DNA of 64,000 bases from Pseudomonas aestuarii (GTDB lineage: Bacteria; Pseudomonadota; Gammaproteobacteria; Pseudomonadales; Pseudomonadaceae), in NCBI RefSeq assembly GCF_027988105.1, contig NZ_JAQJZJ010000011.1, forward strand, positions 62,001-126,000. The letters run 5' to 3'. Shown one piece after another: positions 9,808 through 53,325 of the stretch (positions are counted from its first letter, which is position 1; each line of letters opens with the position of its first letter). The translations under genes and the position numbers were made by a program. The notes under the pieces were generated by a model. That model saw only the letters and a list, made by a program, of their open reading frames with translations, searched no databases and was not told where the DNA came from.

Positions 9808-9832
9808 AAGGCTTAAGCAGGCTGGATTTGCT

Positions 9833-27824: not shown

Positions 27825-27871
27825 CCACAATGCTCCAGCCCAGTCACTGCCTGGGCAGCCGTGATAAAAAA

Positions 27872-27898
27872 GGCCCGCCTCCGAGAAAGAGGCAGGCC
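27872..27898. terminator. Rho-independent terminator downstream of BCCT carrier
   Basis: GGCCCGCCTC / GAGGCAGGCC stem (one mismatch) with a 7-base loop. The run of A residues at its left (27865-27871) gives a T-tract for minus-strand transcripts, so it ends the BCCT unit just before the dioxygenase gene. Confidence 0.8.
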
Positions 27899-27922
27899 CT
27901 GGTTTCATCCCACTCGCAAGGC

Positions 27923-29557
27923 TCAGCTGGCCGAGGCGCGCGGGTCGTCAACGCTGGAGAAGTGCAGGCTGGCTGCAGGTTCGCTCAGCAGGGCCCGATG
28001 CAGGGCCATGGCCATCAGCACCAGGATCACCGCGATCGGCAAGGCGGCACAGATACTCGCGGTCTGCACGCTCTTGAGTCCGCCCGACCACAGCAGGGCC
28101 GCGGCGATGGCACCCACCATCAACCCCCAGGCCACGCGACTCCAGGCCGGCGGATGGATGTTGCCGCGGGCGGCCAGGGTGCTCACCACCAGGGTTCCGG
28201 AGTCGGCCGAGGTGACGAAGTAGGTCACGATCAGCAGCGAAGCCAGGGCGCCCAGCAGGCCACCGATGTTCAGGCCCGAGGACTGCTCGATCTTGTCGAA
28301 CAGGGTGAACAGCGAGGCGGTGGCATCGGCCTTGGTCGCGAGCAGAATGGCACCGCCCTCGAACTTGGCTTCATCACCCGTCAGGCCCTGGCTCTGCACC
28401 TGCTCCTGATGGGCGAGGCGATCGGCTTTCTCGTAGTTGAGCGCGGCGCCACCGAAGGTACCGATCCAGACGAAGCTGAACAGCACCGGAATGATCAGCG
28501 ACCCCATCACCAGCTGGCGAATGGTGCGGCCACGGGAAATCCGCGCGATGAAGGTGCCGACGAAGGGTGCCCAGGTCAGCCACCAGGCCCAGTAGAAGGC
28601 GGTCCACCAGTTCTGCCAGCCGGCGTCGTTCTGGGTGTCGCTCCATAGGCTCATGCCGATCACGCTCTGGGCGTAACCGGAGGTGCCTTCGAGAATGGTG
28701 TTGAGGATGTAGCGGGTCGGCCCGAACGCCATCACCGCAACCAGGATGACCAGCGACAACAGCATGTTCCACAGCGACAGCAGTTTGATGCCGCGGTCGA
28801 CGCCGGATACGACCGACATGATCGCCACCAGGGAAATGGCCAGGATCAGGCCCATCTTCAGGCCGATGCCCAGCTCGAAGCCGCTCAGGGTCTTGATCCC
28901 GGTCGCCAGCTGTTCGACGCCGAGGCCGAAGGAGGTGGCGATACCGAAGGCGGTGACTACCACGATCAGGATGTCGAACAGGCTACCCAGCCAGCCGTTC
29001 ATCCGCGCCTCGCCGAACAGCGGGGTCAGGGTCGAGCGGATCGACAGCGGCTTGCCCTTGCGGAAGGAGAAGTAGGCCAGGCACAGCGCCGGCAGCAGGT
29101 ACAGGGCCCAGGCATGCATGCCCCAGTGGAAGAAGGTCACGCGCATCGCCGACTCGGCCGACTCGGCACTCAGGCTGGTGACGCTGAAGGGGTTGCCGGC
29201 ATAGTGCCACATGGGTTCGGCCACCGACCAGAACAACAGGCCAATGCCCATGCCGGCACTGAACAACATGGACAACCAGGAAATCGTGCTGAACTCGGGT
29301 TTTTCGCCGTCCTTGCCGAGGGTGACATTGCCGTAACGGCTAGTCATCAGATACAACAGGTACACCAGCACGGCCGAGGCCATCGCCAAATAGAACCACT
29401 TGAAATTCTGCAGGATAGTCGTGGACAGTTCGCCGAATAGTGCCCCGGCTTGCTCACCCATCACCGCGCAAAAGCCGACGAAGGCCGCAATTATCAGGAT
29501 CGAAATCAAGGTTATTCCGGCATCGACGCCGCGAAAAACCCCGCTGGAATTACTCAT
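27923..29557 (-). CDS. BCCT-family betaine/choline-type transporter (first)
   Basis: Inner-membrane carrier of 544 residues with 12 predicted helices, of the betaine-choline-carnitine family. Signature segments: GMGIGLLFWSVAEPMWHY in TM2-3 and FYWAWWLTWAPFVGTF followed by ARISRGRTIR. Members take up quaternary ammonium or sulfonium betaines by sodium or proton symport. A 15-bp T-N11-A palindrome shared with two other promoters of this cluster lies 153 bp upstream of the start codon. It is a single-gene unit ending at the terminator before the dioxygenase gene. Confidence 0.93.
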   Translation of the reverse strand: MSNSSGVFRGVDAGITLISILIIAAFVGFCAVMGEQAGALFGELSTTILQNFKWFYLAMASAVLVYLLYLMTSRYGNVTLGKDGEKPEFSTISWLSMLFSAGMGIGLLFWSVAEPMWHYAGNPFSVTSLSAESAESAMRVTFFHWGMHAWALYLLPALCLAYFSFRKGKPLSIRSTLTPLFGEARMNGWLGSLFDILIVVVTAFGIATSFGLGVEQLATGIKTLSGFELGIGLKMGLILAISLVAIMSVVSGVDRGIKLLSLWNMLLSLVILVAVMAFGPTRYILNTILEGTSGYAQSVIGMSLWSDTQNDAGWQNWWTAFYWAWWLTWAPFVGTFIARISRGRTIRQLVMGSLIIPVLFSFVWIGTFGGAALNYEKADRLAHQEQVQSQGLTGDEAKFEGGAILLATKADATASLFTLFDKIEQSSGLNIGGLLGALASLLIVTYFVTSADSGTLVVSTLAARGNIHPPAWSRVAWGLMVGAIAAALLWSGGLKSVQTASICAALPIAVILVLMAMALHRALLSEPAASLHFSSVDDPRASAS

Positions 29558-30020
29558 AGCATGTGCTCCATTGTTATTGTCTGTATGCCTCTGCGCACGC
29601 CGGGCTCAGGGCCAACTGATGAATCTTTGCGGTTACCTCCAGGCTGTTTTATCAGCCTCGATAATTCGATAAAGCCAACTTCCGACACATGTTTTTATAT
29701 GGGCAATCAATGAGTTTTAATCATTAATAGACTCGCAACAGCGTTTGTTTCCGCCGTCACTAAACAGCACTCGGGCTTGCACACGGAAACCACCCCGACC
29801 GGGGCAACATCTATGTTTATAAGTTTGCCAAGTGCATCCGCACGCCACGCTACGACATGGCGGACGGATCATTATTTCGCGGCTGACTATAGGGTCACGG
29901 GGCAACCCAAAAGCATTCCATTCACGTCATCGGCCGATCCATTCGCGCCAGATCTGGCGCAAGTAGCTCAGCAGACGATAGAGGCAGGCGATCGCGCGGC
30001 CTTGTCGGTGAGGTTAAGGA
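29558..30020 (-). other. Promoter region of the first BCCT carrier
   Basis: A 463-bp gap between the two carrier genes. The only recognised element is the palindrome at 29710-29724. No gene is supported. Confidence 0.5.
29710..29724. promoter_or_regulatory. Conserved T-N11-A operator, copy 1 (first BCCT carrier)
   Basis: ATGAGTTTTAATCAT, an ATGA/TCAT inverted repeat of LysR form TGA-N7-TCA. It matches copies 2 and 3 at all but two variable positions. Located 153 bp upstream of the carrier start at 29557. Confidence 0.65.
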
Positions 30021-31574
30021 TCAGCCGCGCGGTTCCTGGCTCAGTGCCTTGAGCAAGCCGATCATCAGGAACAGCATCAGCACCATGAACGGCAGGCCCA
30101 TGGCCACGGCTCCGGCCTGAATGCCTTTGAGCGCCGTATCGCCGCCAATCACGAACAGGGTGATGGTCACCAGGGCAATCATCACCAGCCAGAGCACGCG
30201 CTGCACCGGGGAGGTACCCGGATCGCCGCCCGCCGCCAGGTTGTCGACCACCAGGGCACCGGAGTCCATGGAGGTGACCATGAAGATGACCAGCAGCACC
30301 ACCACCAGCACCGAGGTGACGGCCGCCAACGGCAGCATTTCGAGGAACTGGAAGATCGCCATGTTGACGTCCGTCAGACCGGCCGCCAGTGCGCCACTGC
30401 CGTCAATCACCTGGGCAATCGCGCCGCCACCGAAGGCGCTGAACCAGAAGATCGCCACGATGGTCGGCACCACCATGACCACGCCGACCATCTGCCGCAG
30501 CGTGCGGCCCCGGGAGACGCGGGCGACGAACACCCCGACCAGCGGACCCCAGGTGCACCACCAGGCCCAATAGAACACGGTCCAGCCCTGGAACCAGTCC
30601 TGATCTGGACGATCGACCCAGTTGGCCAACGGCAGGAAGAACTCGGCAAAGTCGACAGTCGTGTCCAGCACGCCCGAGAAGAAGCTCAGCACGCCAATGC
30701 CCGCGACCACCAGCAGGAACAGGCCCAGCGCCAGCAGCATGTTGATGTTGCTCAGCAGCTTGACCCCGGCATCCATGCCGCGCCACAGCGAGAATCCTGC
30801 CACGCCAGTCACCACCAGGATGAACAGCAGCTGCAGGCCGAAGGAGTTGGGAATACCCAGCACATGCGAGATCCCGGCAGTCGCCTGCATGGCGCCGAGG
30901 CCCAGGGAGGTGGCCAGGCCAAACACCGTCAGCACCACGGTAAAGGTATCCACCAGTTGCCCGGGCAGGCCCTTGTGCGCCTTGCCGATCAGCGGCTGCA
31001 GGCCGGAACTGAGGGAAAACGGCAGGCCCTTGTTATAGGCAAAGAAACCCACCACCAGGGCGCTGGTCAGGTAGATCGCCCAGGGATGCAAGCCCCAGTG
31101 GAAGATCGTTGAGCCCATGGCCGCGTGCAGCGCTTCGGGGGTCTGTTTGGCGACGTTGAGCGGGGTCTTCCACCACTCGGTGTATTGCGCCACGGGCTCC
31201 GCCACGCCCCAATACAGCAGGCCGACACCCATTCCGGCGGCGAACAGCATGGAAAACCAGGACAGGGTGCTGAACTCAGGCTGGGCGTGCTGACCGCCCA
31301 GGCGGATCTTGCCGAATGGCGACAGCGCCAGGCCGGCGCAGAATAGAACGGCCAGATTGCCCATGATCATGATGAACCAGTCACAGTTCTTCAGGATCCA
31401 GCCCTTGACCCCTTCCAGGGCCTGGCCGAAGGCCGCGGGGTCATTCAGGGCCAGTAGAACCAAGGCCAGAACAATAGAGAATGAAGCGGGGAAAATAACC
31501 CTGTGAAAGTTCAAACCCAGTAATTGGATATTGAAATTCCGGGGCACTGAAGCATCGGCGGCAATGTCTTTCAC
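30021..31574 (-). CDS. BCCT-family betaine/choline-type transporter (second)
   Basis: Carrier of 517 residues, 12 helices, with BCCT signatures GMGVGLLYWGVAEPV and FYWAWWCTWGPLVGVF followed by ARVSRGRTLRQM. It is clearly paralogous to the first carrier but not a recent duplicate. The two sit in tandem, each with its own copy of the palindromic operator, downstream of the Rieske operon. Two carriers with separate promoters suggest different affinities or related substrates. Confidence 0.93.
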   Translation of the reverse strand: MKDIAADASVPRNFNIQLLGLNFHRVIFPASFSIVLALVLLALNDPAAFGQALEGVKGWILKNCDWFIMIMGNLAVLFCAGLALSPFGKIRLGGQHAQPEFSTLSWFSMLFAAGMGVGLLYWGVAEPVAQYTEWWKTPLNVAKQTPEALHAAMGSTIFHWGLHPWAIYLTSALVVGFFAYNKGLPFSLSSGLQPLIGKAHKGLPGQLVDTFTVVLTVFGLATSLGLGAMQATAGISHVLGIPNSFGLQLLFILVVTGVAGFSLWRGMDAGVKLLSNINMLLALGLFLLVVAGIGVLSFFSGVLDTTVDFAEFFLPLANWVDRPDQDWFQGWTVFYWAWWCTWGPLVGVFVARVSRGRTLRQMVGVVMVVPTIVAIFWFSAFGGGAIAQVIDGSGALAAGLTDVNMAIFQFLEMLPLAAVTSVLVVVLLVIFMVTSMDSGALVVDNLAAGGDPGTSPVQRVLWLVMIALVTITLFVIGGDTALKGIQAGAVAMGLPFMVLMLFLMIGLLKALSQEPRG

Positions 31575-31879
31575 GCAAGGATCCTCACTGTATTATTTTT
31601 GTAGTCATGCCAATACCGAACAGCGCTTTAATGGCGTTAACCACCACTAAAAACAGCCTCATCGAATTGAACAGATGCGTGATGGTCGGGTAGCCAAGCA
31701 CTTGCCACAAATCATTTAATCTGCGCCATTAATGACTTTTGATCATCCATGCGCGCCACTCACAACAGCATTAACAGCAGGCGCTGGCGCAGCGCAGACC
31801 TGCCGCCATTAACGCCTCGTTGCAGCTGTTGTTTAACGGCCCACAGGCCCTCTTCGATCGAGTACCTGGTGCACCCCGT
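31575..31879 (-). other. Promoter region of the second BCCT carrier
   Basis: A 305-bp gap between the DddP-like gene and the second carrier. It holds the palindrome at 31732-31746. No gene is supported. Confidence 0.5.
31732..31746. promoter_or_regulatory. Conserved T-N11-A operator, copy 2 (second BCCT carrier)
   Basis: ATGACTTTTGATCAT followed by CCATGCGC. It shares extended identity with copy 3 (ATGACTTTTAATCAT then CCATCCGC). It lies 158 bp upstream of the second carrier start at 31574. Confidence 0.7.
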
Positions 31880-33127
31880 TCATAACCAGTCGTCCTGCCA
31901 GGGGTAGTGCGACAGCGCCTGGCAGCCGTCGCGGGTAATCAGCACCTGCTGTTCCAGCTTGATACCCTCGGCGCCGCCCTGCTCGCCGATATAGCTCTCG
32001 ACGCAGAGCACCATGTTTTCCTCGAACACCCCGTCGTAACCGCTGCTGGCCCAGTCGGCGCCCTTGTGCGCCAGGGCCGGGTACTCGTCGGCCAGGCCGA
32101 CGCCGTGTACCACGCAGCAATAACGGTTGTGCAGGTAGGCGGCGGGAATATCCCAGGAACGCTCGACGAACTCGCGGTGGCTCAGGCCCGGACGCAGCAG
32201 GTCCATGTTGTGCTGGATCTGCTCATGGGCCAGGCGATAGAGCTTGCGCTGCTCGGCCGTGGGTGGCACATGGCCAACCGTCCAGGCCCGGGAAATATCG
32301 GCGCAGTAGCCATAGGGGCCGATCAGGTCGGTGTCGAAGCAGAGGATCTCGCCCTCTTGCATGATCCTGTCGCTGGACTCCTGCATCCAGGGGTTGGTGC
32401 GCGGCCCGGAGGCCAGCAGACGGGTCTCGATCCATTCGCCGCCGTGGCGGATGTTCTCGTAGTGCAACCAGGCCCACAGCTGGTTTTCGCTCATGCCCGG
32501 GCGCAACTCGTCGTGCATGCGCTGGATGCCGCGCTCGCAGACGGCGATGGTCCAGCGCATCAGCTCCAGTTCCGCGGCGGATTTAATTTTGCGCGCCTCC
32601 TCCATCAGGCTGTGACCCTCGACCAGGCACAGGCCGCGCTGCTGCAGCAGCTCCAGCCCCTCGAAGTCGGCCTTGTCCACCGCCAACCGAGCCTTGCCGC
32701 CGGCATGCTGGTGCAGCACCGCGAGGATGTCATCGGCCCAGACCACGGCCTTCTCGGAGATCCGCGAACCGGCGCCGAAATAGCTCCAGTTGATCGCCGG
32801 GCGGATTTCGTCGAGCAGTTCGTTGCCCTCATGCAGGTGCTCGCAGTTGTGGAACTCGAACAGCACCACCGGCCCGCTGGCGAACACCAGGGCGTAACGG
32901 GCGAAGTTGTGCAGGGTCCACACCTGCATGTTCGAGGTGTCGGTGGCGTAGCGGATGTTCACCGGATCGTAGAGCAGGATGGCCGCGCAATCGGCGGCCA
33001 GCAGTTGCTGGCGCACCCGCTGCAGGCGATAGCCGCGCGCGTCCTGGTGGGTCTCGACGCTGACCGGGTTACGCAAGGGCTGGCCAGCGGACTCGCCGCT
33101 CGGGTACTTATTCTTGTTGTCGAACAT
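31880..33127 (-). CDS. DddP-like M24-family metalloenzyme (putative DMSP lyase)
   Basis: Protein of 415 residues with an N-terminal creatinase-like domain and a C-terminal pita-bread M24 domain. Putative metal ligands are Asp265, Asp267 (CFDTDLIG), Asp277 (CADISR), His341 (VVHGVGLADEYP), Glu377 (CVESYIG) and Glu392 (KLEQQ). The DTD pair and the spacing reproduce those I recall for Ruegeria DddP (Asp295/297/307, His371, Glu406/421) with a near-constant offset, and Asp347 falls where its catalytic Asp377 would be. DddP cleaves dimethylsulfoniopropionate to dimethyl sulfide and acrylate. No acrylate-handling genes are nearby, so another betaine substrate is possible. Last gene of the Rieske operon, 58 bp after the MFS gene. 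Confidence 0.75.
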   Translation of the reverse strand: MFDNKNKYPSGESAGQPLRNPVSVETHQDARGYRLQRVRQQLLAADCAAILLYDPVNIRYATDTSNMQVWTLHNFARYALVFASGPVVLFEFHNCEHLHEGNELLDEIRPAINWSYFGAGSRISEKAVVWADDILAVLHQHAGGKARLAVDKADFEGLELLQQRGLCLVEGHSLMEEARKIKSAAELELMRWTIAVCERGIQRMHDELRPGMSENQLWAWLHYENIRHGGEWIETRLLASGPRTNPWMQESSDRIMQEGEILCFDTDLIGPYGYCADISRAWTVGHVPPTAEQRKLYRLAHEQIQHNMDLLRPGLSHREFVERSWDIPAAYLHNRYCCVVHGVGLADEYPALAHKGADWASSGYDGVFEENMVLCVESYIGEQGGAEGIKLEQQVLITRDGCQALSHYPWQDDWL

Positions 33128-33185
33128 GGTTGGATTCCAGGCAATGGGGTCAGGCTGAAGCAAGGCTGTCAGGTCAAGCGCCCGA

Positions 33186-34472
33186 TCACTCGGGCTGTGC
33201 AGTAATCGTCGGGGCCTCGGTGGTTTGCGGCTCGACTGCGTGCGGGCTGGCCGGCTCGATCGCAGCGGCCAGGGTGGCGCTGGCCAAGCCGACCGGGGTG
33301 GCCTGGTGATGCAGCGGCGCATCCTCCTGCAGGTGCGCACCGCTGACCTTGCCCTGGCCGACCGATAGGGCCAGCAGCGCAGCACAGGCGGCGGAAAAGT
33401 AGTACAGGCTGGAGGCGCCGAAGCGCTCCATCAGCGCGCCGGCCAGCAACGGGCCGATAGCGGCGCCGACGCCGTAGGTCACCAGCAACAGCCCGGCCAG
33501 GGACACGCGCAGTTCGGCCTCGATATTGTCGTTGGCCAGGGCCACGCCCAGCGGATACAGGCAGAACTGCAGAAAGCCGATGCAGGCGCCGACCAGCAGC
33601 AGGACGCCGAAGGACGGTTGCTGAGAGAAACCCAACGGCAGGCAGGCGAGGACCAGCAGCACCGCCACGCCACGGATCAGGCTGGCCCGCGGCAAGCGAT
33701 CGGACAGCCAGCCCAGGGGCAGTTGGGCGAGCAGGCCGGCGCCGATGATCATCGCCATGAACTGACCGACCTCGGTGGTATCCAGGCCCTGGCGACTGGC
33801 ATAGATGGCCGCCAGGCCGAAGAAGGCGCTGTAGATCATCCCGGCCATCAGCACGGTGACCAGCGACTGTGGCACCCGCTGGATAAACAGCTTGATATCG
33901 ACCGGCGCCGGCTGCAGCGCGGCCGGGTGCATGCTGCGAGTCAGGGCCACCGGCACCAGGCACAGAGCAAAGGCCATGGCCACGCCAAGCAACGCGTGGA
34001 TGCCCAAATCGCCCTTCCAGCTCAGGGCCAGCTGGCCGAGCACCATGCCGACGTAGATCGCCACCATGTAGATGCCCAGCACCTTGCCACGCTGGTCGCT
34101 GCGGGCTTGGTCGTTGAGCCAGCTTTCCAGCACCATCAGCTGGCACATCATCGCCAGACCGACCAACGCGCGCAGGAATAGCCAGAACGGCAAGGCACTG
34201 CTGAATTCGTGGGCCAATACGGCCGCGGCAATCACCCCGCCACAGGCGACATAGGTGCGGATATGCCCGACCCGCTGGATCAGCACGCGCCCGACCTTGC
34301 CGCCGGCCACCATGCCCAGGGCGTTGGCGGCCATCAGCGCACCGCCCCAGAATTCGGCCACGCCGTCGGCACTCAGGCGCAGCGCCAGGTAGGTCATCAG
34401 CAGGGTCGAGCCCAGCTGCATCAACAGGCTGGCCAGGTACAGGGCGCCAAAGGTCTTAGTCAGTCCGAGCAT
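33186..34472 (-). CDS. MFS transporter
   Basis: Major facilitator protein of 428 residues with about 12 helices, starting MLGLTKTFGALYLASLLMQL, and an extra Pro/Thr/Glu-rich C-terminal tail of roughly 60 residues. The family resembles YcaD-like carriers. Motif A-like DQARSDQRGKVLG lies between early helices. Placed between the cupin and the DddP-like gene in the catabolic operon, it may export a product or import a substrate; direction and substrate are not determined. Confidence 0.85.
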   Translation of the reverse strand: MLGLTKTFGALYLASLLMQLGSTLLMTYLALRLSADGVAEFWGGALMAANALGMVAGGKVGRVLIQRVGHIRTYVACGGVIAAAVLAHEFSSALPFWLFLRALVGLAMMCQLMVLESWLNDQARSDQRGKVLGIYMVAIYVGMVLGQLALSWKGDLGIHALLGVAMAFALCLVPVALTRSMHPAALQPAPVDIKLFIQRVPQSLVTVLMAGMIYSAFFGLAAIYASRQGLDTTEVGQFMAMIIGAGLLAQLPLGWLSDRLPRASLIRGVAVLLVLACLPLGFSQQPSFGVLLLVGACIGFLQFCLYPLGVALANDNIEAELRVSLAGLLLVTYGVGAAIGPLLAGALMERFGASSLYYFSAACAALLALSVGQGKVSGAHLQEDAPLHHQATPVGLASATLAAAIEPASPHAVEPQTTEAPTITAQPE

Positions 34473-34551
34473 GCGTGGCTCCTTGGCCAGAACGAAGAAA
34501 ACCGCCGCTCCCGGCTGGGGGATGCGGCGGCAGAACGACCAGGGCGAAGGC

Positions 34552-34923
34552 TCAGGCCAGACCGTGACGCTGTTTCCAGTCGCCCGGATGGACCACGTAA
34601 CCGAACAGCGCATGGCCGCCATAGACCAGCTCGGTGCCTTCCGGTATCCACAGCAGCTGGCCCGGCTTGACCCGGTACAGCTCGCCGTTGGCCTGCAGTT
34701 CGAAACAGCCTTCGATGACGAAGATCACCTCGTCATACAGCAGGGTCCAGTGGACCTCGGCGCCCTCCCAGCGGGCAAAGCCGATACCGATATTCGGCGA
34801 CACTTCATTGCTGATGGCGCGGGCGACAAAGGCCGCGCCGGGCGGCCCGCCACGGGGGATGAACTCCAGGTCATGGTGATCGACCAGCAGCACCGGGCCT
34901 TTCCCGGAAACGACCGGAGTCAT
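34552..34923 (-). CDS. EutQ-like cupin protein
   Basis: Single-domain cupin of 123 residues. The core reads HWTLLYDEVIFVIEG and PGQLLWIPEGTELVYGG, close to EutQ-type cupins. The canonical metal-binding HxH of motif 1 is not intact (HWTLLYDE), so it could act as an acetate-kinase-like or structural cupin, or bind metal differently. DMSP-cleaving cupins (DddQ/L/W/K) are also small, but their His/Glu motif is not visible. The start codon overlaps the stop of the FAD oxidase gene by 4 bp, showing translational coupling. Confidence 0.75.
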   Translation of the reverse strand: MTPVVSGKGPVLLVDHHDLEFIPRGGPPGAAFVARAISNEVSPNIGIGFARWEGAEVHWTLLYDEVIFVIEGCFELQANGELYRVKPGQLLWIPEGTELVYGGHALFGYVVHPGDWKQRHGLA

Positions 34924-36248
34924 AGCTCGCTCCGACTGTTCCAGGCCGCCAGGCGAATGCGCGAGCGCACGCCGAGGCCGAGGAAGGGCTCCGGCGGGTT
35001 CAGCGACGGCATGCCGGTGACCGCCTGGATATCGCGCAACTGCGCCGAATCGGCACCCACCGCCAGATCGGCCAGCAGGGTGCCGGAGATGGTGCCCCAG
35101 GCCGCGCCGACGCCGTTGTCGCAGGCCGAGGCGTAGACGCCCTGCGCCAGCTCGCCGAAGAAGTTGGTGAAGTTGCGTGAGATGGCGTAGACGCCGCCCC
35201 AGGTGTGGCTGAACGGCACGTTGGCCAGCTGCGGGAAGCGCGCCAGGAAGGCCTTGCGGTGATCTTCGCGCACGCTGGCGCGCATGGCATCGCTGGTGCT
35301 CTGGCCGTATTTGGGCACGTGCTTGTAGGTGTTGCGGATCATCAGGCGACGATCCTGAGTCATGCGCACCGTGGTGCCGGCGTGGTCGGCCGGGGTCAGG
35401 CCCCAGTCCAGCTCGCCGCCATAAACGGCCAACTCGGCGTCGCTCAGCGGCCGGGTCCAGCTGGCGAAGGTCATCACCGGCAGCAGGCGGTTGCGCAGGT
35501 AGCCAAACTCCTGGGTGAAGATGCTGGTGCCGAGCAACAGCTGCGACGTGCGGATGCGGCCATTATTGCCGTGCAGGATCCAGCCGCCCTGGCCGTCGCG
35601 CTCCAGGCGCTGGATCGGCGACTCCTCGAGCAGCTCGACGTTGCCCGGCAGCGAACCACCCAGGCCAGTGACCAGCGCCGCCGGCTGCATCAGGTAGCAG
35701 CCCGGGGTGTAGATCGCCCCGCTGTAGTGCTGGCTGCCCACCACCTTGGCCAGTTCCGCGCGCTCGACCCGGCGGAAAGGCTCGCCGAGGTCGCGCATCA
35801 ACTTCTCGAAGTGATCGAGGTAGGCCAGGCCGCGCGGGCCGACCGCGCCTTGGTACTTGCCGGCATGCGACCACTGGCAATCGATGCCGTGGCGCTCGAT
35901 CAGCCCCTGCAGCTGGGCGATGGCGGCCCGATTGAGGCCGAGCAGGCGTTGCTTGTGCGCCGGGTCCGGATGCTCGAGGGCGAACTTGTGCGGCAGGTCG
36001 ATGACGAAGCCGGAGTTACGCCCCGAGGCGCCGTAGCCAACGCGCTGGGCGTCGACCAGCAGGATACGCGCCTCGGGATGATGCTCGGCCAGCCGGCGAG
36101 CGGCGGCCAGGCCGACAAAACCGGCGCCGATCACCGTGTAATCGGCGCGCTGCTCGCCCTGCAGGCGGGTGGCCGGCGCAGCGGCGGGCAGTGCGGCATA
36201 CCAGCCGCAGCTGGCATCGTCGTAGGGCAGATTGATGGTCTTTTTCAT
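34920..36248 (-). CDS. FAD-dependent amine/amino-acid oxidase (DAO family)
   Basis: Flavoprotein of 442 residues with the Rossmann motif VIGAGFVGLAAARRLAEHH at 39-57 and RVGYGASGRNSGFVIDLPHK, typical of the DAO group with gamma-glutamylputrescine oxidase and N-methyl amino acid oxidases. The C-terminal HTWGGVYAISRNF and ACDNGVG fit the same group. In this operon the likely job is oxidative N-demethylation or deamination of a secondary or tertiary amine left after Rieske oxidation. It is followed by the cupin (4-bp overlap) and preceded by the rubredoxin fusion (10 bp). Confidence 0.88.
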   Translation of the reverse strand: MKKTINLPYDDASCGWYAALPAAAPATRLQGEQRADYTVIGAGFVGLAAARRLAEHHPEARILLVDAQRVGYGASGRNSGFVIDLPHKFALEHPDPAHKQRLLGLNRAAIAQLQGLIERHGIDCQWSHAGKYQGAVGPRGLAYLDHFEKLMRDLGEPFRRVERAELAKVVGSQHYSGAIYTPGCYLMQPAALVTGLGGSLPGNVELLEESPIQRLERDGQGGWILHGNNGRIRTSQLLLGTSIFTQEFGYLRNRLLPVMTFASWTRPLSDAELAVYGGELDWGLTPADHAGTTVRMTQDRRLMIRNTYKHVPKYGQSTSDAMRASVREDHRKAFLARFPQLANVPFSHTWGGVYAISRNFTNFFGELAQGVYASACDNGVGAAWGTISGTLLADLAVGADSAQLRDIQAVTGMPSLNPPEPFLGLGVRSRIRLAAWNSRSEL

Positions 36249-36258
36249 GGTACAGCCC

Positions 36259-37668
36259 TCAGGCCACGGCCCGTTGAGCGTTCTGACAGGATTGCAGCCA
36301 ACTGTTGCGCTGCACTTGTGCTTGGCGACCGAGCAGGACGAAGCCATGCAGCGCCCCCTCGGCATCGTAGTAACCGGCGCTCAGGCCATCGGCGGTAGCC
36401 GTGCAGCGCCACTCGCCAGCGACTCCGACGGCCGGTGGCAGCAGGCACAGCGGCGCGGCCGGGGTTTTCACCGTCACCGGCATCAGCGGGTAGCTGACCG
36501 CTGTCGGCTGGCCGAGCAGGGTCTTGCTCAGGGCCTGGATGCCCTGGTTGATGGGCGCCAGGTAGGGCAGCAGCTGACCGTTGATCTCGATGCAATCACC
36601 CAGGGCGTAAATGCCAGGCTGCGAGCACTGCAACCGGGCGTCTACCTGGATACCGCGGCCCACGGCGACGCCGGCCGTCTCGGCCAGTGCCATGTTGGGA
36701 CGCAGGCCGACGGCGGACAGCACCAGGTCGGCTTCCAGTTGCTGACCATCGGCCAGACTCAGGCGATAGCCCTGGCCCAGCGGCTCGATGCGCTTGAGGG
36801 TGTTCTGCAGGTGCCAGCTGACGCCCAGCTCGCCCAGGGCCGTCTGCAACTGCTGGCCGGCCTCGCGTGGCAACAGGCGCTCCATCGGCCACTGGCCGAG
36901 GCCGATGACGCTGACCGCGCAGCCGCTGGCGGCCAGGTCATTGGCGAACTCGCAGCCGATCAGGCCGTCACCGAGGATCGCCACCCGCTGCACACCGACC
37001 AGGCGCTCGCGGAAGCTGCGGTAGTCGTGCAGGTTGTTGACGCTGATCAGCGCCTGGCTGTCGCCCTCGATCGGCAGACGAATCGGCGCCGCACCACTGG
37101 CCAGGACCAGCTGGCCATACTCCATCTCGCCGATGTTGGTGTGCAGGCGCCGCGCCTCGGCGTCGATGCGCTCGACCCGGCAATAGGGATAGACGCGAAT
37201 CTTCAGGCGCTTCTCGATCGCCAGCGCCGACTCGCCGGCCAGGGCGTCGGCACTCTTGCCCTGAGCCAGGCCGATCGACAGCGCCGGTTTGGAATAGAGG
37301 TGACCGGACTCCTGGGTCAGCACGCGGATCTCGACCTGCGGGTCGGCGCGGCGCAGGGCCTGGGCCAGGCCGTAGCCGGCATAGCCGCTGCCGATGATAA
37401 CGATCGGCTGGCGCACCTCGGCGACTGCCGGCTGTGCGGCTTTCGGCAGCGGCAGCGGCAGCGGCAGCGGCGTGCTGGCCACCGCGGCGGCGACCACCGG
37501 GCTGATGTCGAGCATCTCGAAATCTTCCTTGCCGACCTTGCACTCGGGGCACTTCCAGTCCGTCGGCACATCGTCCCAACGGGTGCCGGCGACGATGCCG
37601 TCGTCCGGCCAGCCGAGGGCCTCGTCATAGATCAAACCGCAGACCACACAGAGCCAGGTCTTGAACAT
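36259..37668 (-). CDS. Rubredoxin / rubredoxin reductase fusion
   Basis: Electron-transfer protein of 469 residues. An N-terminal rubredoxin domain has iron ligands Cys7, Cys10, Cys40 and Cys43 (CVVCG, CPECK). A Pro/Leu linker (about 66-80) leads to an NAD(P)H:FAD reductase with FAD motif GSGYAGYG (93-100), a second nucleotide motif ILGDGLIGCE and the YALGDC signature. Such pairs normally feed alkane hydroxylases; no alkB is here. The position between the aldehyde dehydrogenase (5 bp) and FAD oxidase genes and the absence of any ferredoxin-type reductase make it the likely redox partner of the Rieske oxygenase. Confidence 0.92.
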   Translation of the reverse strand: MFKTWLCVVCGLIYDEALGWPDDGIVAGTRWDDVPTDWKCPECKVGKEDFEMLDISPVVAAAVASTPLPLPLPLPKAAQPAVAEVRQPIVIIGSGYAGYGLAQALRRADPQVEIRVLTQESGHLYSKPALSIGLAQGKSADALAGESALAIEKRLKIRVYPYCRVERIDAEARRLHTNIGEMEYGQLVLASGAAPIRLPIEGDSQALISVNNLHDYRSFRERLVGVQRVAILGDGLIGCEFANDLAASGCAVSVIGLGQWPMERLLPREAGQQLQTALGELGVSWHLQNTLKRIEPLGQGYRLSLADGQQLEADLVLSAVGLRPNMALAETAGVAVGRGIQVDARLQCSQPGIYALGDCIEINGQLLPYLAPINQGIQALSKTLLGQPTAVSYPLMPVTVKTPAAPLCLLPPAVGVAGEWRCTATADGLSAGYYDAEGALHGFVLLGRQAQVQRNSWLQSCQNAQRAVA

Positions 37669-37673
37669 GTCGC

Positions 37674-39119
37674 TTACTCCCCCGCTACGCGGATCGCTAC
37701 GTTCTTGGTGCGCACATAGCTGTACAGGGCTTCCTGGCCCTTCTCGCGGCCGAAACCGGACAGGCCGACGCCGCCGAACGGCGTCTCGATACCACCGGCA
37801 TACCACTCGTTGACGAACACCTGGCCGGCCTTGAGGCGCCGGGCGCAGCGCATGGCGCGGCTGATATCCTGGGTAAATACGCCGGCGACCAGGCCGAATT
37901 CGGTGCCGTTGGCGATGGCGATGGCCTGTTCCTCGCTGTCGAAGGGGATGATCGCCAGCACCGGGCCGAAGACTTCTTCCTGGGCAATGCACATCTCGGG
38001 GCTTACATCGCGGAACACGGTCGGGCGCATGAAATGCCCGGCCCTGTCGCTGAAAGCCTCACCACCGGTGGCCGCCACCGCGCCCTCATCGATTGCGCGC
38101 CGACACAGGGTTTCGATGCTGGCCAGTTGCCCGGCACTGACCACCGGAGTCAGGTCTGGGTTGTCGTGACCGACGCCGACGCTGAGGCCTTCGGCCAGGG
38201 CGACGACGGACTCGACGATTTCTTCATAGATCTCGCGCTGCACCAGCAGGCGCGACATGGCCGAACAGACCTGGCCGGCATTGAAGAAGATGCCGCCCTT
38301 GACGCTGGCCAGCAGCTGCTGGCGGTCGGCATCGGCGAAAGCGATCGCCGCCGACTTGCCACCCAACTCCATGACGCTGGGGATAGCGTGCTCGGCGGCG
38401 TCACGCAGGATGGTCTGGCCTGTCGGTACCGAGCCGGTGAAGACGATCTGATCGACCTTGGCGCTCTGCACCAGATGGCTGCCGACCTCACGGCCACGAC
38501 CGCAGATCAGGTTGACCGCGCCATTTGGCAGGCCGGCCTTGGCGATGGCGCGAATCAGCACGCACATGCCCAGCGGCGACAGCTCCGGCGACTTGATCAC
38601 CACCGCATTGCCGGCGGCCAGGGCCGGCGCCAGCGAGCGGGCGCAGATCGACACCGGGAAGTTCCACGGCACGATCTGCGCCGACACACCCATGGGGTCG
38701 TAGAGGGTGAAATCCATGTAACCGTTGCCCAGCGGGATCGAGGTGCCCTCGATCTTGTCGGCCATGCCGGCGTAGTACTCGAAGTAGCGCGCCGCTTCGG
38801 TGAACTCATCGCGGGCATCGTTGAGGCTCTTGCCGTTTTCCTGGCACAGCACCCAGGCGCCTTCGTCGGCGACCGCACGAATCTCTGCGGCGATACGCAG
38901 CAGCCAGGTGACCCGCTGCGCCGGACGCACGCTGCTCAGCGCGCCGCTGTCGGCGCAACGCCGCGCGGCCGCCAAGGCGCGCTCGGCATCGGCGACCGTG
39001 GCCTGGGCGATGGTCGCCACAGGCTCTGCGCTGCCGGGGTTGTTGACCGTAAGGCGCGACTCGCTATCGAGCCACTCACCGTCGATGTAGTTGAGCCAGT
39101 GGGATGCAATCGGATACAT
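37674..39119 (-). CDS. NAD(P)-dependent aldehyde dehydrogenase (betaine-aldehyde type)
   Basis: Oxidoreductase of 481 residues. Catalytic Cys285 (NAGQVCSA) and general base Glu251 (ELGGKS) are present, with PWNFPVSI and FTGSVPTG of the cofactor site. Overall it resembles betaine-aldehyde and semialdehyde dehydrogenases. Start MYPIASHWLNYIDGEW at 39119, 10 bp after the Rieske stop. In the operon it would oxidise an aldehyde, or a semialdehyde, produced by the Rieske oxygenase or the FAD oxidase. Confidence 0.93.
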   Translation of the reverse strand: MYPIASHWLNYIDGEWLDSESRLTVNNPGSAEPVATIAQATVADAERALAAARRCADSGALSSVRPAQRVTWLLRIAAEIRAVADEGAWVLCQENGKSLNDARDEFTEAARYFEYYAGMADKIEGTSIPLGNGYMDFTLYDPMGVSAQIVPWNFPVSICARSLAPALAAGNAVVIKSPELSPLGMCVLIRAIAKAGLPNGAVNLICGRGREVGSHLVQSAKVDQIVFTGSVPTGQTILRDAAEHAIPSVMELGGKSAAIAFADADRQQLLASVKGGIFFNAGQVCSAMSRLLVQREIYEEIVESVVALAEGLSVGVGHDNPDLTPVVSAGQLASIETLCRRAIDEGAVAATGGEAFSDRAGHFMRPTVFRDVSPEMCIAQEEVFGPVLAIIPFDSEEQAIAIANGTEFGLVAGVFTQDISRAMRCARRLKAGQVFVNEWYAGGIETPFGGVGLSGFGREKGQEALYSYVRTKNVAIRVAGE

Positions 39120-39129
39120 GGCGGCCTCC

Positions 39130-40320
39130 TCAGGCGGACGGTACGGTGGCCAGCAGCTGACGCGCAGCCCACTGATGGAAGAAGTGGGTCGGGATATCCA
39201 TCTCGGGAGAGAAGGCGCCGCCGCCGTAGCCGGGCGAGTGACGGCCCTTCTGCATGCCTTCGACCGAGGCGATGTCCTCGGCGAAGACCACCTTCCAGGA
39301 TTCCAGGATGGCGTTGCGGCACGCGGCGTACTCATCGCCCAGGGCCTCGTCACCGACATAGAACAACCGCAGGTGCTCGATGGTGCGCCCCGGCGCGACC
39401 GGCTCCAGCTGCATGGCGAAGGCGTGGTCGGCCTGGATGCCGAGCAGCACGTTGGGGAAGAAGGCCACGTACTCGGCGTTGCGCAGGCGGTCCTGCGGCC
39501 AGCTGGGGAACTTCGGCAGGTGGGTACCGGCGACATCCGACAGGTTGTAGGCGTAGCTGCCCTGACCGGCAAAACGCTCATCAAACAGAATGTTGTAGTG
39601 GTCTTCCAGGCGCGAATAGGTGTTCAGGCTCGGGTGCACCCACGGCAGGTGATAGGCCTCGCAGTAGTTCTCCACCGCCAGCTTCCAGTTGCAGTTGATG
39701 TCCAGGGTGGTGGCATCAAACCCCGGACGGCGGCGCAGCAGGTCCATGCCATCGTCACCGAGGAACTGACTCCAGCGCGCGGTCAGCGGCGCGAGCATCT
39801 CTTCCAGGGTCTGGGCATCGCCAGACAGGTTGACGAACACCATGTCCATCCAGATGGCGCTGCGGATCGCCTTCAAGCCATGCTTTTCGCAGGCGAAGCG
39901 CTCGTCTTTGTGCACATCGATACCGCCGACGTGCGGGGTGCCCTTGAGGCCGCCGTTGAGGTCATAGGTCCAGGAGTGGTAGGGGCAGCGGATCACGCCC
40001 TGCACGGTGCCTTCTTCCTGCACCAGCTTCATGCCGCGGTGGCTGCAGACGTTGTGGAAGACCTGCACCAGGCCCTCGCGGTTGCGCATCAGCAACAGCG
40101 GCAGGCCCATGAAGTCGACCGGCTTGACCGAGCCGTTCTGGGTCAGGTCGCTGGCGAAGCCGACGCAGGCCCAGGTCTTGCCCATCACCTGATCGCGCTC
40201 CAACTCGAAATGACGTTGCTCGATGTAGAACTCGTTGCTCAGGCCGGTGGCTTGGTGAATCGGGTTGAGGACGCTTTCCAGATGATGCACAGGAATGTGT
40301 TGAGAAGTGGTCGAAGTCAT
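39130..40320 (-). CDS. Rieske non-heme iron oxygenase, GbcA/CntA-like
   Basis: Oxygenase alpha subunit of 396 residues. The Rieske [2Fe-2S] ligands are Cys92, His94 (VCSHRG), Cys112 and His115 (CPYHSW). The catalytic iron site has His224 and His229 in AYHLPWVH, preceded by Glu221, the position of the bridging residue that is Glu in carnitine monooxygenase CntA and Asp in most ring hydroxylases. That group (GbcA, CntA, stachydrine demethylase) attacks quaternary ammonium compounds. It is first in the operon, downstream of the conserved palindrome. No CntB/GbcB-type reductase is adjacent. Confidence 0.92.
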   Translation of the reverse strand: MTSTTSQHIPVHHLESVLNPIHQATGLSNEFYIEQRHFELERDQVMGKTWACVGFASDLTQNGSVKPVDFMGLPLLLMRNREGLVQVFHNVCSHRGMKLVQEEGTVQGVIRCPYHSWTYDLNGGLKGTPHVGGIDVHKDERFACEKHGLKAIRSAIWMDMVFVNLSGDAQTLEEMLAPLTARWSQFLGDDGMDLLRRRPGFDATTLDINCNWKLAVENYCEAYHLPWVHPSLNTYSRLEDHYNILFDERFAGQGSYAYNLSDVAGTHLPKFPSWPQDRLRNAEYVAFFPNVLLGIQADHAFAMQLEPVAPGRTIEHLRLFYVGDEALGDEYAACRNAILESWKVVFAEDIASVEGMQKGRHSPGYGGGAFSPEMDIPTHFFHQWAARQLLATVPSA

Positions 40321-40444
40321 TGTTGTTGTTCTCCCCTGCTGGGCATGGTGGCTAATGATCGGCAGGCTCGCTGGCCAGGCTCCGTTGGCAGCGAGTTTCG
40401 AGAATCAGGGGATTGTTCGACAAACGATTTTTACAGCTGCATTT

Positions 40445-40459
40445 ATGACTTTTAATCAT
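40445..40459. promoter_or_regulatory. Conserved T-N11-A operator, copy 3 (Rieske operon)
   Basis: ATGACTTTTAATCAT, 125 bp upstream of the Rieske start at 40320, with the same downstream extension as copy 2. Consensus of the three copies: ATGA[C/G]TTTT[A/G]ATCAT. Confidence 0.7.
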
Positions 40460-41070: not shown

Positions 41071-42006
41071 TTATGCGTCGCCAGCGAGCGTGGCGTCGCC
41101 CAGCGCAGGGGGCAGCTGGTCGAGCAGCCAGGCGCGGAAGCATTTAACGCTCTGGCGCATCACCCCTCGACCAAGCGGCTCCAGCAGGCAGAATTGCGCA
41201 TCCGACTGCAACACGGTGTCGATCGGCCGCACCAGGGCGCCGGTCTGCAGGTGGTTGTCGATCAGGTTCGACCAGGCCAGCGCGATGCCCTGGCCACTGA
41301 GCGCCGACTGAATCAGCATCGAGTAACTGTTGATGTTGATCCGCCGCTTGGGCTCGATGCCTTTATAGCCCAGGCGCTGAAACCATTCGGACCAGCCGAT
41401 CCAGTCGCGCTGCGGATCTTCCAGCCACAGCCAGGTGCAGTCGGCCAACTGCTCCGGGGTGCTCAGCGTCGGGTTCTTGGCCAGATAGCCCGGGCTGCAC
41501 ACCGGGAACACTTCCTCGGCGAACAGCGGGGTTACCTGCATATCCTTCGGTGGGGTGCGGCAGTAGTACAACGCCAGGTCGCAATCCAGGCGGGAGAAGT
41601 CCTTGACCTGGTCATAGGCGATGATGCGCAGGTCGACCTCTTCGTTATCGCGCTGAAACTCGGCCACCTTGGGCAGCAGCCACAACGAGGCCATCGCCGT
41701 ACTGGTGACCACGGTCACCTGTTGCGCGCCCTGCCAGTGGCGAATTTCACCGGTGGCATGGGCCAGCTGCAGCAACGCGGTCCGCACAGTCTCATAGTAC
41801 TGGCTGCCGGTCGGGCTCAGGTTGATCGCCCTTGTGGTGCGCTCGAACAGGGTTTTGCCCAGGTAGTCCTCGAGCAGGCGCACCTGGCGGCTGATCGCGC
41901 CCTGGGTGACGTTCAGTTCGTGCGCCGCCAGGGTAAAGCTCAGGTGGCGCGCGGCCGCTTCGAACGCCACCAGGCTGTTGAGTGGAGGCAGTGGATGGAT
42001 TTTCAT
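41071..42006 (-). CDS. LysR-type regulator, GcvA-like, candidate controller of the betaine cluster
   Basis: Regulator of 311 residues: N-terminal helix-turn-helix (MKIHPLPPLNSLVAFEAAAR ... NVTQGAISRQVRLLEDYLG) and a C-terminal effector domain with the WLWLEDPQRDW segment. The GcvA-like subgroup often controls amino-acid and betaine genes. It is co-directional with and upstream of the Rieske operon, and is the only regulator gene next to it. The three T-N11-A palindromes in the cluster fit a LysR protein. The link is inferred from position. The ATG at 42006 matches the family start. Confidence 0.88.
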   Translation of the reverse strand: MKIHPLPPLNSLVAFEAAARHLSFTLAAHELNVTQGAISRQVRLLEDYLGKTLFERTTRAINLSPTGSQYYETVRTALLQLAHATGEIRHWQGAQQVTVVTSTAMASLWLLPKVAEFQRDNEEVDLRIIAYDQVKDFSRLDCDLALYYCRTPPKDMQVTPLFAEEVFPVCSPGYLAKNPTLSTPEQLADCTWLWLEDPQRDWIGWSEWFQRLGYKGIEPKRRININSYSMLIQSALSGQGIALAWSNLIDNHLQTGALVRPIDTVLQSDAQFCLLEPLGRGVMRQSVKCFRAWLLDQLPPALGDATLAGDA

Positions 42007-42978: not shown

Positions 42979-44463
42979 TCAGGCCAGCTCGCGCTCGACC
43001 TCGTCGAACTGGGCTTGCACGGCGGCTTCCGGCTCTTTGGTCAGCAGGCTGACAACGATGATGGCAAGGGTTGCCAGGATAAAGCCGGGAATGATCTCGT
43101 ACAGATCGAAGATCCCGCCGGACAGCTGCTTCCAGATCAGCACGGTCAGGCCACCGAGGATGATGCCCGCCAGAGCGCCATTGCGGTTCATGCGCTTCCA
43201 GTACAGCGACAGCAGGATGGCCGGGCCGAAGGCGGCGCCGAAGCCAGCCCAGGCGTAGGACACCAGGCCCAGCACGGTATTGTCCGGGTTCAGGGCCAGC
43301 ACCAGGGCGATGACTGCAATCAGGACCACGGCGCCACGGCCGATCCAAACCAGTTCGAAGTCGCTGGCGTGCTTCTTCAGGATCGCCTTGTAGAAGTCTT
43401 CCGCCAGGGCCGAGGAGCTGACCAGCAGTTGCGAGTCGGCGGTGGACATGATCGCGGCCAGCACGGCGGCCATCAGGATACCGGCCACTACCGGGTGGAA
43501 CAGGCTGTTGACCAGGACCATGAACACGGTTTCGGCGTCGCCCAGGTCGGTTTCCAGGTAACCCAAGGCCACCCAGCCGATGGACAAGGCAGCGACCAGG
43601 GTCAGGGCAGTCCAGCTCACCGCAATGCGACGGGCAGTCGGAATGTCCTTGTTATCGGAAATCGCCTTGAAGCGCGCGAGGATATGCGGCTGGCCAAAGT
43701 AGCCCAGGCCCCAACCGACCAGCGAGAGGATCGCGATAATGCCCAGCGGTTGGCCTTTGGCATCGTTGAAGAAGGTCAGCAGCTCGGGATTTTTCGCGGC
43801 GATCGCCAGGTGGGCGGCTTCGACACCACCCACTACGTTAAGGGCGAATATCGGCACCAATACCAGTGCGGCAGCCATCAGCAGGCCTTGCACCACGTCG
43901 GTCCAGGCCACGGCGAGGAAGCCGCCGAACAGGGTGTAGGAAACCACCGCCAGGGTGCCGACGATCACGGCGATCTGGTAGTCGAAGCCGAACACGGTTT
44001 CGAACAGCTTGCCGGAAGCCACCAGGCCAGAGCTGGTGTAGAACAGGAAGAAGGTCAGGATGATCAGCGCCGACACCACCCGCAGGGCGCGGGATTTGTC
44101 GTTGAAGCGATTTTCGAAGTAGGACGGCATGGTCACCGAGTCATTCGCCGTGTGCGAGTAAACGCGCAGGCGCTGGGCGACGAACAGCCAGTTCAGCCAG
44201 GTACCCGCCAACAGGCCACCCGCGATCCAGGTGGCTTCGAAACCAGCTGCCAGGGCATAGCCCGGCAGACCCAGCATCAGCCAGCCACTCATATCGGAAG
44301 CGCCAGCCGACAGCGCCGCGGTGGTCGGGCCGATGGAACGGCCGCCGAGGATGTAATCGGACAGGTTACTGGTCCGTTTGTAGGCCACCAGGCCCAACCA
44401 CAACATCATCACCAGGTAGACCACGAAGGTCACCCCTACAACAAAAACGTTCTGCTCGTTCAT
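42979..44463 (-). CDS. putP: Sodium/proline symporter
   Basis: SSS-family carrier of 494 residues with about 13 helices, importing proline with Na+. Signature segments: LSAGASDMSGWLMLGLPGYAL, GLGYFGQPHILARFKAI and ADSQLLVSSSALAEDFY, all typical of PutP. It lies 152 bp downstream of putA on the same strand. By family knowledge it is induced by proline together with putA; no operator was recognised. Confidence 0.96.
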   Translation of the reverse strand: MNEQNVFVVGVTFVVYLVMMLWLGLVAYKRTSNLSDYILGGRSIGPTTAALSAGASDMSGWLMLGLPGYALAAGFEATWIAGGLLAGTWLNWLFVAQRLRVYSHTANDSVTMPSYFENRFNDKSRALRVVSALIILTFFLFYTSSGLVASGKLFETVFGFDYQIAVIVGTLAVVSYTLFGGFLAVAWTDVVQGLLMAAALVLVPIFALNVVGGVEAAHLAIAAKNPELLTFFNDAKGQPLGIIAILSLVGWGLGYFGQPHILARFKAISDNKDIPTARRIAVSWTALTLVAALSIGWVALGYLETDLGDAETVFMVLVNSLFHPVVAGILMAAVLAAIMSTADSQLLVSSSALAEDFYKAILKKHASDFELVWIGRGAVVLIAVIALVLALNPDNTVLGLVSYAWAGFGAAFGPAILLSLYWKRMNRNGALAGIILGGLTVLIWKQLSGGIFDLYEIIPGFILATLAIIVVSLLTKEPEAAVQAQFDEVERELA

Positions 44464-47795: not shown

Positions 47796-48309
47796 CACGC
47801 CCATCCTCTTAAGGAAACTGTTGTTGTAGGAACCACTGTTACTGGGTTTGGCGCAAATGCACTGGTCTGACCATTGCGCTCGGCCAATCCACACGGCAAA
47901 CAGTGGATAATTGAATTTAGTTGCATAGCCATGACCGCTTCTTGCAGAAAGCTCTGAAGTTTTTGCAAAAACCTATGAGCTGGGGAACTAACGGCGAACC
48001 CAGGTTCGGGAACTGGCGCCATCCAGGCGAGACTCCGCCGGGGAGCAAGTGGCCCAGCCACATGGCCGTGCCTGCCCGCAGCACGCGGCGGGATAGGCGT
48101 GGCTCGCCAGCGACAGGGTGGATGCTGCCTAGCGCGGCAACCATGCCCATTGCCGGTCAGGGCCACCGAGGAATTGCCGGGGCAGGCCCCTGCCCCGGCG
48201 CCCCTGAGCCGAGGGTTCGCAGCGGCCGCTATGCTCTATGGCATGGAGCCATCAATGCTCTGACTACGGCGCTCGGGTTGTGTGCTACCCGGGCGGAGGG
48301 AGGACTGCC
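47796..48309. other. Divergent promoter region putA / binding-protein gene
   Basis: A 514-bp gap with the putA promoter on the left and the binding-protein promoter on the right. It contains a perfect palindrome at 48176-48199. No gene is supported. Confidence 0.5.
48176..48199. repeat. 24-bp GC-rich palindrome
   Basis: GCCGGGGCAGG and its exact complement separated by CC, giving a near-loopless 11-bp stem. It lies 111 bp upstream of the binding-protein gene and lacks a T-tract. It may be an extragenic palindrome or a leader hairpin. Confidence 0.6.
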
Positions 48310-52023: not shown

Positions 52024-52039
52024 GGTGCACCTGTCATAG

Positions 52040-52059
52040 TACTGTATCCATATACAGTA
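52040..52059. promoter_or_regulatory. LexA (SOS) box shared by umuDC and the SRAP gene
   Basis: TACTGTATCCATATACAGTA is a full 20-bp match to the LexA consensus pattern taCTGT-N8-ACAGta. It lies 16 bp before umuD and 58 bp before the SRAP gene start, so it can control both directions. Confidence 0.93.
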
Positions 52060-52117
52060 CAGAACAAACCCGCCAGCCTACAATCAGAATGAACAAGGCG
52101 ATGACGAGCGGACGACC

Positions 52118-53303: not shown

Positions 53304-53325
53304 TCTCCATTTTATTCACGCCCAC

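Follow-up and report, generated by a model that had tools for sequence, protein, structure and literature searches.

The 64,000-nucleotide stretch of Pseudomonas aestuarii DNA analysed here (contig NZ_JAQJZJ010000011.1, positions 62,001 to 126,000; hereafter the window) carries an operon of seven genes which may serve the import and oxidative degradation of a betaine. All seven are intact open reading frames on the minus strand, spanning 31880-40320. The first encodes a Rieske oxygenase of group Va type (RO; 39130..40320, 396 aa, PF00355 + PF00848), followed by an aldehyde dehydrogenase, a probable semialdehyde dehydrogenase (ALDH; 37674..39119, 481 aa, PF00171), a fusion of rubredoxin with an NADH:rubredoxin-reductase-like protein (RdR; 36259..37668, 469 aa, PF00301 + PF07992 + PF18113), a DAO-type FAD amine/amino acid oxidase (DAO; 34920..36248, 442 aa, PF01266) and a EutQ-like small cupin (CUP; 34552..34923, 123 aa, PF06249 at 54.8 bits), which overlaps the DAO gene by 4 bp. 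Two accessory genes follow, for an MFS carrier (33186..34472, 428 aa, PF07690) and a DddP-like M24 metalloenzyme (31880..33127, 415 aa, PF00557). The original prediction had described seven genes on one strand with gaps of -4 to 79 bp, and the open reading frames and measured gaps (from RO to M24: 10, 5, 10, -4, 79 and 58 bp) agree with this, as do Pfam matches for all seven products with the domain identities it gave. The best NCBIfam matches of the seven genes all fall below their curated cut-offs (EutQ at 52 bits against 193 for the cupin; PRK03633 at 139 bits against 361 for the MFS carrier).

Upstream of the operon, on the same strand, stands a LysR-type regulator of GcvA/BetR-like kind (41071..42006, ATG at 42006), which scores 279.5 bits to the NCBIfam GcvA model (cut-off 288) and 242.2 bits to the NCBIfam choline sulfate regulator model (cut-off 324.8). 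PutP (42979-44463) and PutA (44616-47894) are also upstream. On the other side are two BCCT carriers (both PF02028, minus strand): BCCT1 (30021..31574), with AGMGVG and WTVFYWAWW stretches, and BCCT2 (27923..29557), with AGMGIG and WTAFYWAWW stretches. Directly 3' of BCCT2 a consensus scan picked out a terminator-like stem-loop of 13 pairs with a T run (27870..27900, minus strand; a pattern match only).

Group V Rieske oxygenases are split by the residue at CntA position 203, an aromatic residue marking group Va and Asn group Vb; carnitine, choline and benzalkonium are given as group Va substrates, while group Vb demethylates glycine betaine and stachydrine (PMC7948474). CntA, choline monooxygenase and OxyBAC belong to Va, and GbcA and Stc2 to Vb. 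In alignment A1, RO has the Rieske residues C92/H94 and C112/H115, together with Y219, bridging E221, H224, H229 and D349, to which roles are assigned by analogy to CntA. Position 203 is Tyr or Phe in 112 of 113 RO homologues (strains partly overlap; the motif was not found in locus L147), and the bridging Glu (E205 in CntA), which precedes the iron-binding His, is present in 112 of 113. The group Vb Asn is absent from RO. The GbcA of the same genome (C20, 800.8 bits) and a GbcA-like gene at L027 (446.5 of 670 bits) both read ENNRECYHC, and therefore the Va/Vb contrast is internal to the material. In the PDB, the RO profile matches CntA best (157 bits), with 3vca, which we take to be Stc2, at 118 bits. 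A Cys-x-x-Cys pair is found in some group V enzymes (PMC10952381), and is absent from all 112 RO homologues, which have A, S or R and L at the two positions. Judged by its residue signature, RO is of the group Va quaternary-amine type. With an aromatic residue in place of the Vb Asn, it should therefore oxidise a carbon other than an N-methyl, giving an aldehyde, and such a product fits ALDH as the next gene after RO.

The gene set recurs well beyond this genome. RO matched at 1e-70 in 16 of 199 genomes of the genus, and in 22 of 398 across the phylum; in family f55, probably Rhodobacteraceae, the loci of 7 of the 16 f55 genomes with RO were examined. A search of genome contigs with alignment A1 gave 588 confirmed stretches, the best 80 of which are the loci counted here, and a locus was scored as complete when ALDH, RdR, DAO and CUP all lay within 8 kb of RO on its strand. 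On this count the five genes are complete in 35 of the best 80 loci, which is 35 of the 43 whose RO is at least 60% identical, and the order RO-ALDH-RdR-DAO-CUP is kept in every one (35/35). Among the eight remaining loci at this identity, L109 has M24 inserted and its cupin just past 8 kb, L118, L137 and L138 are short contigs, and the others are L124, L134, L135 and L146. Neighbours of the 35 complete loci include LysR in 33 (within 8.5 kb), BCCT in 32, an MFS carrier of at least 50% identity in 15, M24 no further than 12 kb from RO in 10, and PutA in 3. The conserved unit is thus five genes (RO, ALDH, RdR, DAO and cupin) with LysR and BCCT, and MFS and M24 are accessory. The neighbourhood search suggested by the original prediction thereby recovered a recurrent core, while the seven genes that it took as the unit do not hold together, MFS and M24 being variable.

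Hosts of the five genes include Pseudomonas, Thauera, Cupriavidus, Zobellella, Oceanimonas, Pseudoalteromonas, Acinetobacter, Halomonas, Colwellia, Marinobacterium and Aeromonadaceae, among others; P. umsongensis is one Pseudomonas species with the cluster. Because orthologous clusters are present in so many genera, the arrangement is not due to chance. A plasmid collection contains 83 records with an RO match at 1e-60, 5 of them at 60% identity or more and 78 below, and the five genes are found on pMPC6-328K of Pseudomonas sp. MPC6 (typed conjugative), on a Cupriavidus pauculus plasmid (mobilizable) and on an Oceanisphaera plasmid (non-mobilizable). The five genes, with LysR and BCCT, are also present in a record (L219) labelled an Acinetobacter baumannii plasmid, which at 3.97 Mb is likely to be a chromosome. 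A quick RO tree places 38 five-gene rows, together with 3 other rows, in a single group of 41 (branch support 85, under the tool's mark of 95 and not starred), with L139 outside it. The five-gene label needs 5 changes on this tree against a shuffled mean of 28.3; the starred branches force at least 5, and the carriers of the unit are therefore not one strict clade.

Operator-like palindromes link the operon to its putative carriers. ATGATTAAAAGTCATAAA lies at 40442..40459 (minus strand, no mismatch), about 120 bp upstream of the RO start, ATGATCAAAAGTCATTAA at 31729..31746 (minus strand), about 155 bp upstream of BCCT1, and the weakly conserved ATGAGTTTTAATCATTAA, with one mismatch, at 29710..29727 (plus strand), about 153 bp upstream of BCCT2. 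An alignment of the RO upstream regions of ten Pseudomonas loci has the conserved palindrome and a ATCGTTTGTC block. When one mismatch is allowed, ATGAYNNNNNRTCATNAA occurs in the window at three places (5 overlapping reads), 5' of the operon and of each BCCT gene; shuffled sequences average 0.34, and 0 of 100 shuffles reach the observed count. ATGAYTWWWRRTCATNAA, likewise with one mismatch, occurs in the 5.16-Mb genome at three places, all in this locus, and its reversed control at none. Of the 18 named Pseudomonas loci (L097-L114), all but L113 have the 18-letter pattern with one mismatch no more than 450 bp from RO (17 of 18), as do 13 of 15 further loci of the genus (not L019 or L084), some strains being the same. 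When the 15-bp core is allowed up to one mismatch, it is present in the 400 bp preceding 33 of 34 Pseudomonas RO genes (at least 75% identical) and 16 of 17 BCCT1 genes, counts in which strains partly overlap and for which the motif was derived from ten of these loci; among 1553 random 400-bp window stretches elsewhere, 9 had it. PutA has no palindrome upstream in the genome-wide pattern search at one mismatch. LysR is probably the binder of these palindromes and would regulate both the operon and the BCCT genes. The two BCCT carriers, described in the original prediction as separate units, are indeed separate genes, but have an operator-like site in common with the operon.

ALDH scores 408.7 bits to the betaine aldehyde dehydrogenase (BADH) model TIGR01804 (cut-off 668.6), and Arg stands in 65 of 66 ALDH rows near RO at the column occupied by Trp in the BADH structure 5gtk; the second ALDH in L150 is the exception. 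This Trp is presumably part of the BADH substrate cage, and succinic semialdehyde dehydrogenase probably has Arg at the position. Conversion of choline to betaine aldehyde was set aside on the ground that ALDH lacks the Trp. The reductase half of RdR scores 333.7 bits to NorW (cut-off 392), and the fusion probably supplies electrons to RO. The best NCBIfam match of DAO is L-pipecolate oxidase AmaA (NF050086, 125.1 bits against a cut-off of 600), and a sequence search at 1e-5 returned no PDB relative. Its AlphaFold2 model (mean pLDDT 76.1) matches glycine oxidase best, then sarcosine oxidase, dimethylglycine dehydrogenase and proline dehydrogenase. The cupin matches the EutQ structure 2pyt at 55.8 bits. 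Near more distant ROs other N-methyl oxidases are found, namely DAO-GCV_T proteins in L089 and L091 (both of family f55), in Phaeobacter inhibens (L218) and in SAR11 loci, and SoxB/SoxA-like genes in L141, L149, L150, L151 and L162.

The M24 protein, called DddP-like in the original prediction, is so in part. Its nearest PDB relative is DddP (4b28, 337 bits), with which it has the same M24 family part, and the motifs FDTD, DISR, HGVGLADE, CVES and IKLE, which presumably hold the acting residues, align to that structure; however, it reaches 420.6 bits to the DddP model NF043017, whose curated cut-off is 600, and it keeps other gene company. In 25 of the 35 five-gene loci, which include some short contigs, there is no M24 within 12 kb, and M24 was dropped as a core member for this variable presence. 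Its association with RO is nonetheless beyond chance: of the 9 genomes of the genus that have a close M24 (at least 79%), 8 also have RO (Fisher 2e-9, uncorrected for kinship). Its placement varies as well. In the window the gene follows MFS; L021, L024 and L110 have it ahead of MFS, and L109 between ALDH and RdR. In L118 and L120 it stands upstream of LysR, and in several SAR11 loci directly after RO. Genome G138 keeps MFS, M24 and BCCT2 beside PutA-PutP without the RO unit (L020, 8451-13305), and therefore M24 may be a remnant or serve a separate function. A second M24 (67%) stands beside a GbcA-like oxygenase and a GbcB-like reductase in genome G060 (L027, 7803-18908), together with a BCCT gene apparently split by other open frames and a neighbour which we take to be a formaldehyde dehydrogenase.

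The closest known layout is that of the carnitine CAR module, which consists of LysR, BCCT, oxygenase, semialdehyde dehydrogenase and reductase (PMC6514802). LysR, BCCT, a Rieske oxygenase with the Va mark, ALDH and a reductase are present both here and in CAR/CntA-CntB of Acinetobacter and the Psychrobacter plasmid pP32BP2, but here the reductase is a rubredoxin fusion and not of CntB type, DAO and cupin are additional, RO lacks the Cys-x-x-Cys pair and the operon has no malate dehydrogenase. The GbcA/GbcB glycine betaine monooxygenase likewise has a Rieske oxygenase, yet RO reaches 131.2 bits to the GbcA model (NF058607, cut-off 670), and the Asn and the Cys pair belong to the GbcA of the genome itself and its L027 relative; glycine betaine is an unlikely substrate, since the genome has a different gene that scores above the GbcA cut-off and the RO residues differ. 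The stachydrine demethylase Stc2 is also a Rieske oxygenase, from which RO differs in having neither the Vb Asn nor the Cys pair, and its partner genes presumably differ from those of this operon. The original prediction held that the set does not match familiar clusters for glycine betaine, carnitine or plain DMSP cleavage. Among the open-licence papers listed, no title or abstract opening describes this combination of genes.

We have moderate confidence in a general scheme in which the locus is a LysR-controlled regulon that imports and oxidatively degrades a carboxylated quaternary amine. BCCT1, and probably BCCT2 too, would import the betaine. RO, with NADH electrons passed through the rubredoxin-reductase fusion, would oxidise the carbon beside the quaternary nitrogen, in the manner of CntA on carnitine, which would open the C-N bond and give an aldehyde. 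ALDH would turn this semialdehyde into an acid, and DAO would then oxidatively demethylate the remaining N-methylated amino acid with the cupin as a helper of this step. An amine oxidase is needed if C-N opening leaves the methylated nitrogen attached to the carbon chain, as it would with a ring. A proline-type cyclic betaine, which would employ every enzyme, is the best fit, and we put it forward tentatively as the substrate. With proline betaine (stachydrine), RO would open the ring to N,N-dimethylglutamate semialdehyde, from which N,N-dimethylglutamate, N-methylglutamate and finally glutamate would be formed, every reaction being predicted from sequence. A speculative possibility is that this is a new ring-opening route for cyclic betaines, in which a third subgroup of quaternary-amine Rieske enzymes, with the aromatic residue kept, the Cys pair lost and rubredoxin as the electron source, opens the ring of proline betaine or a related compound, gives an N,N-dimethylamino acid semialdehyde and so leads to glutamate with no stepwise demethylation. 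The import and oxidation of a betaine proposed in the original prediction thus gain from the site common to the operon and BCCT1 (BCCT2 less surely) and from the Va signature. For stachydrine, one of its candidates, the RO residues make N-demethylation of the Stc2 type unlikely, while ring-opening of proline betaine fits best.

Several observations weigh against this reading. RO lacks the Cys-x-x-Cys pair of both CntA and Stc2, and Stc2, the known stachydrine enzyme, belongs to group Vb. One ALDH column is weak evidence, and the nearest PDB chain, 4ywe (an unassigned dehydrogenase), also has Arg. RO is separable from DAO and cupin: L136 and L146 have RO, ALDH and reductase alone, L152 has a RO-ALDH pair, and L090 and L092-L095 have RO without partners of DAO or cupin type, and without an N-methyl oxidase of DAO-GCV_T or Sox type nearby. 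None of the 37 loci whose RO is less than 60% identical (44-60%) holds all five genes, with ALDH in 8 and M24 in 10. PutA is near 3 of the 35 five-gene loci and lacks the site, and its adjacency was set aside as evidence for proline. For the operator, the core with at most one mismatch precedes 2 of 7 close BCCT2 genes (the window and L020), and the other five have it with two mismatches, a level also seen in 233 of the 1553 random stretches; the exact 15-bp core matches the window at 2 places, a count equalled in 1 of 100 shuffles; and outside Pseudomonas a site precedes RO or BCCT in 5 of 18 five-gene loci. The site counts therefore tie RO and BCCT1 firmly, and BCCT2 in part.

An alternative is the use of an acyclic betaine, with RO splitting gamma-butyrobetaine, carnitine, beta-alanine betaine or similar into trimethylamine and a semialdehyde for ALDH, and DAO and cupin acting on another, linked amine. 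The loci with RO and ALDH that lack DAO and cupin are in keeping with this, as are the Va signature, the like layout of the CAR module, and a relative of carnitine dehydrogenase (349.7 bits, cut-off 414) near RO in the SAR11 locus L166. However, of the 43 loci whose RO reaches 60% identity, 37 have DAO near it and 35 the cupin, and to our knowledge DAO-type enzymes do not oxidise trimethylamine, so we regard this route as unlikely. Proline betaine could also be used in the classical way, with RO removing one N-methyl like Stc2, DAO removing or oxidising the second and proline passing to PutA. PutP and PutA just upstream of the operon and the L-pipecolate oxidase match of DAO (125 of 600 bits) would suit such a route, which is nevertheless improbable, as it leaves no place for ALDH, PutA is rarely a neighbour and has no palindrome, and RO has Tyr/Phe and not the Asn of group Vb (PMC7948474).

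Homarine was considered because the operon could be, or be part of, the homarine pathway of Ferrer-Gonzalez et al. 2026 (Nat Microbiol 11:1531). A conserved homarine pathway, linked to N-methylglutamate dehydrogenase, is cited in PMC13390433. The nitrogen of homarine is quaternary, and the compound could be converted to glutamate by RO, ALDH and DAO. The hom operon, homABCDER, is said to comprise five enzymes and a regulator, the same number as here, but its reported hosts are Rhodobacterales, SAR11 and SAR116, which do not fit the distribution of the unit. DAO relatives are present in 41 of the 337 genomes searched from the class to which G312 belongs (probably Alphaproteobacteria), and the five genes occur in none of the 20 of these loci that were examined (L206 has a cupin at 35% beside DAO, and L199 two weak Rieske genes). 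The SAR11 and other alphaproteobacterial RO loci examined likewise lack the five genes. We regard homarine as rather unlikely, and identity with the hom operon was set aside because its reported distribution does not fit. Least probable is the use of dimethylsulfoniopropionate (DMSP), with M24 as the DMSP lyase and the oxidative genes serving its products or a second osmolyte: the resemblance of M24 to DddP and its aligned motifs speak for it, and the score below the curated level and the 25 five-gene loci without M24 speak against it.

Genes in two other loci at first suggested the use of a cyclic betaine. An enolase gene directly 5' of RO-ALDH in L148 is a weak candidate for a proline betaine enzyme, at 327 of 500 bits to cis-3-hydroxyproline dehydratase; its nearest PDB chain is 2ps2 (unnamed, 502.5 bits), and the chains which we take to be hydroxyproline betaine epimerase reach only about 169 bits. 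The use of hydroxyproline betaine by L215 (M24, methyltransferase-like, DAO, DapA-like and ALDH genes) was rejected, the DapA-like protein being under its cut-off.

A second module is present in the same genome (L223, C12:38000-57900, at 3792-11906), with a 573-aa protein (HYP573) that has no Pfam match, DUF3726, LysR, ALDH, an M19 dipeptidase, BCCT and RidA. It adjoins the RO cluster on pMPC6-328K (L217, 532-8667), and parts of it are near RO in L091, L141, L150, P. inhibens (L218) and four SAR11 loci. The 573-aa protein is found in 13 of the 199 genus genomes, including 6 of the 16 with RO. In SAR11 (Pelagibacteraceae; L166-L168, L171 and L175), a relative of RO followed by M24 forms a quaternary amine island, whose neighbours vary by locus and include homocysteine methyltransferase-like, DAO-GCV_T-like and carnitine dehydrogenase-like genes and one that we take to be BKACE-like. 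An OYE-type enzyme of 678 aa, presumably related to N-methylproline or dimethylglycine demethylases, stands beside M24 in L028 (8254-11720) and near the RO unit in Halomonas (L126, 4122-6155; L128, 4425-6461). The predicted structure of HYP563 has a mean pLDDT of 56.5. In the window itself, 52001-58000 has a G+C content of 55-58% against 64% overall, and contains an 839-aa frame at 55241-57760.

Betaines are large pools of nitrogen and carbon in the sea and around roots, and many of the genes for their use are unnamed. For the unit described here, the RO signature, the Arg change in ALDH and the common operator-like sites lead to a short list of substrates and reactions. The five genes, which are partly plasmid-borne, with one plasmid typed as conjugative, form a marker gene set for surveys.

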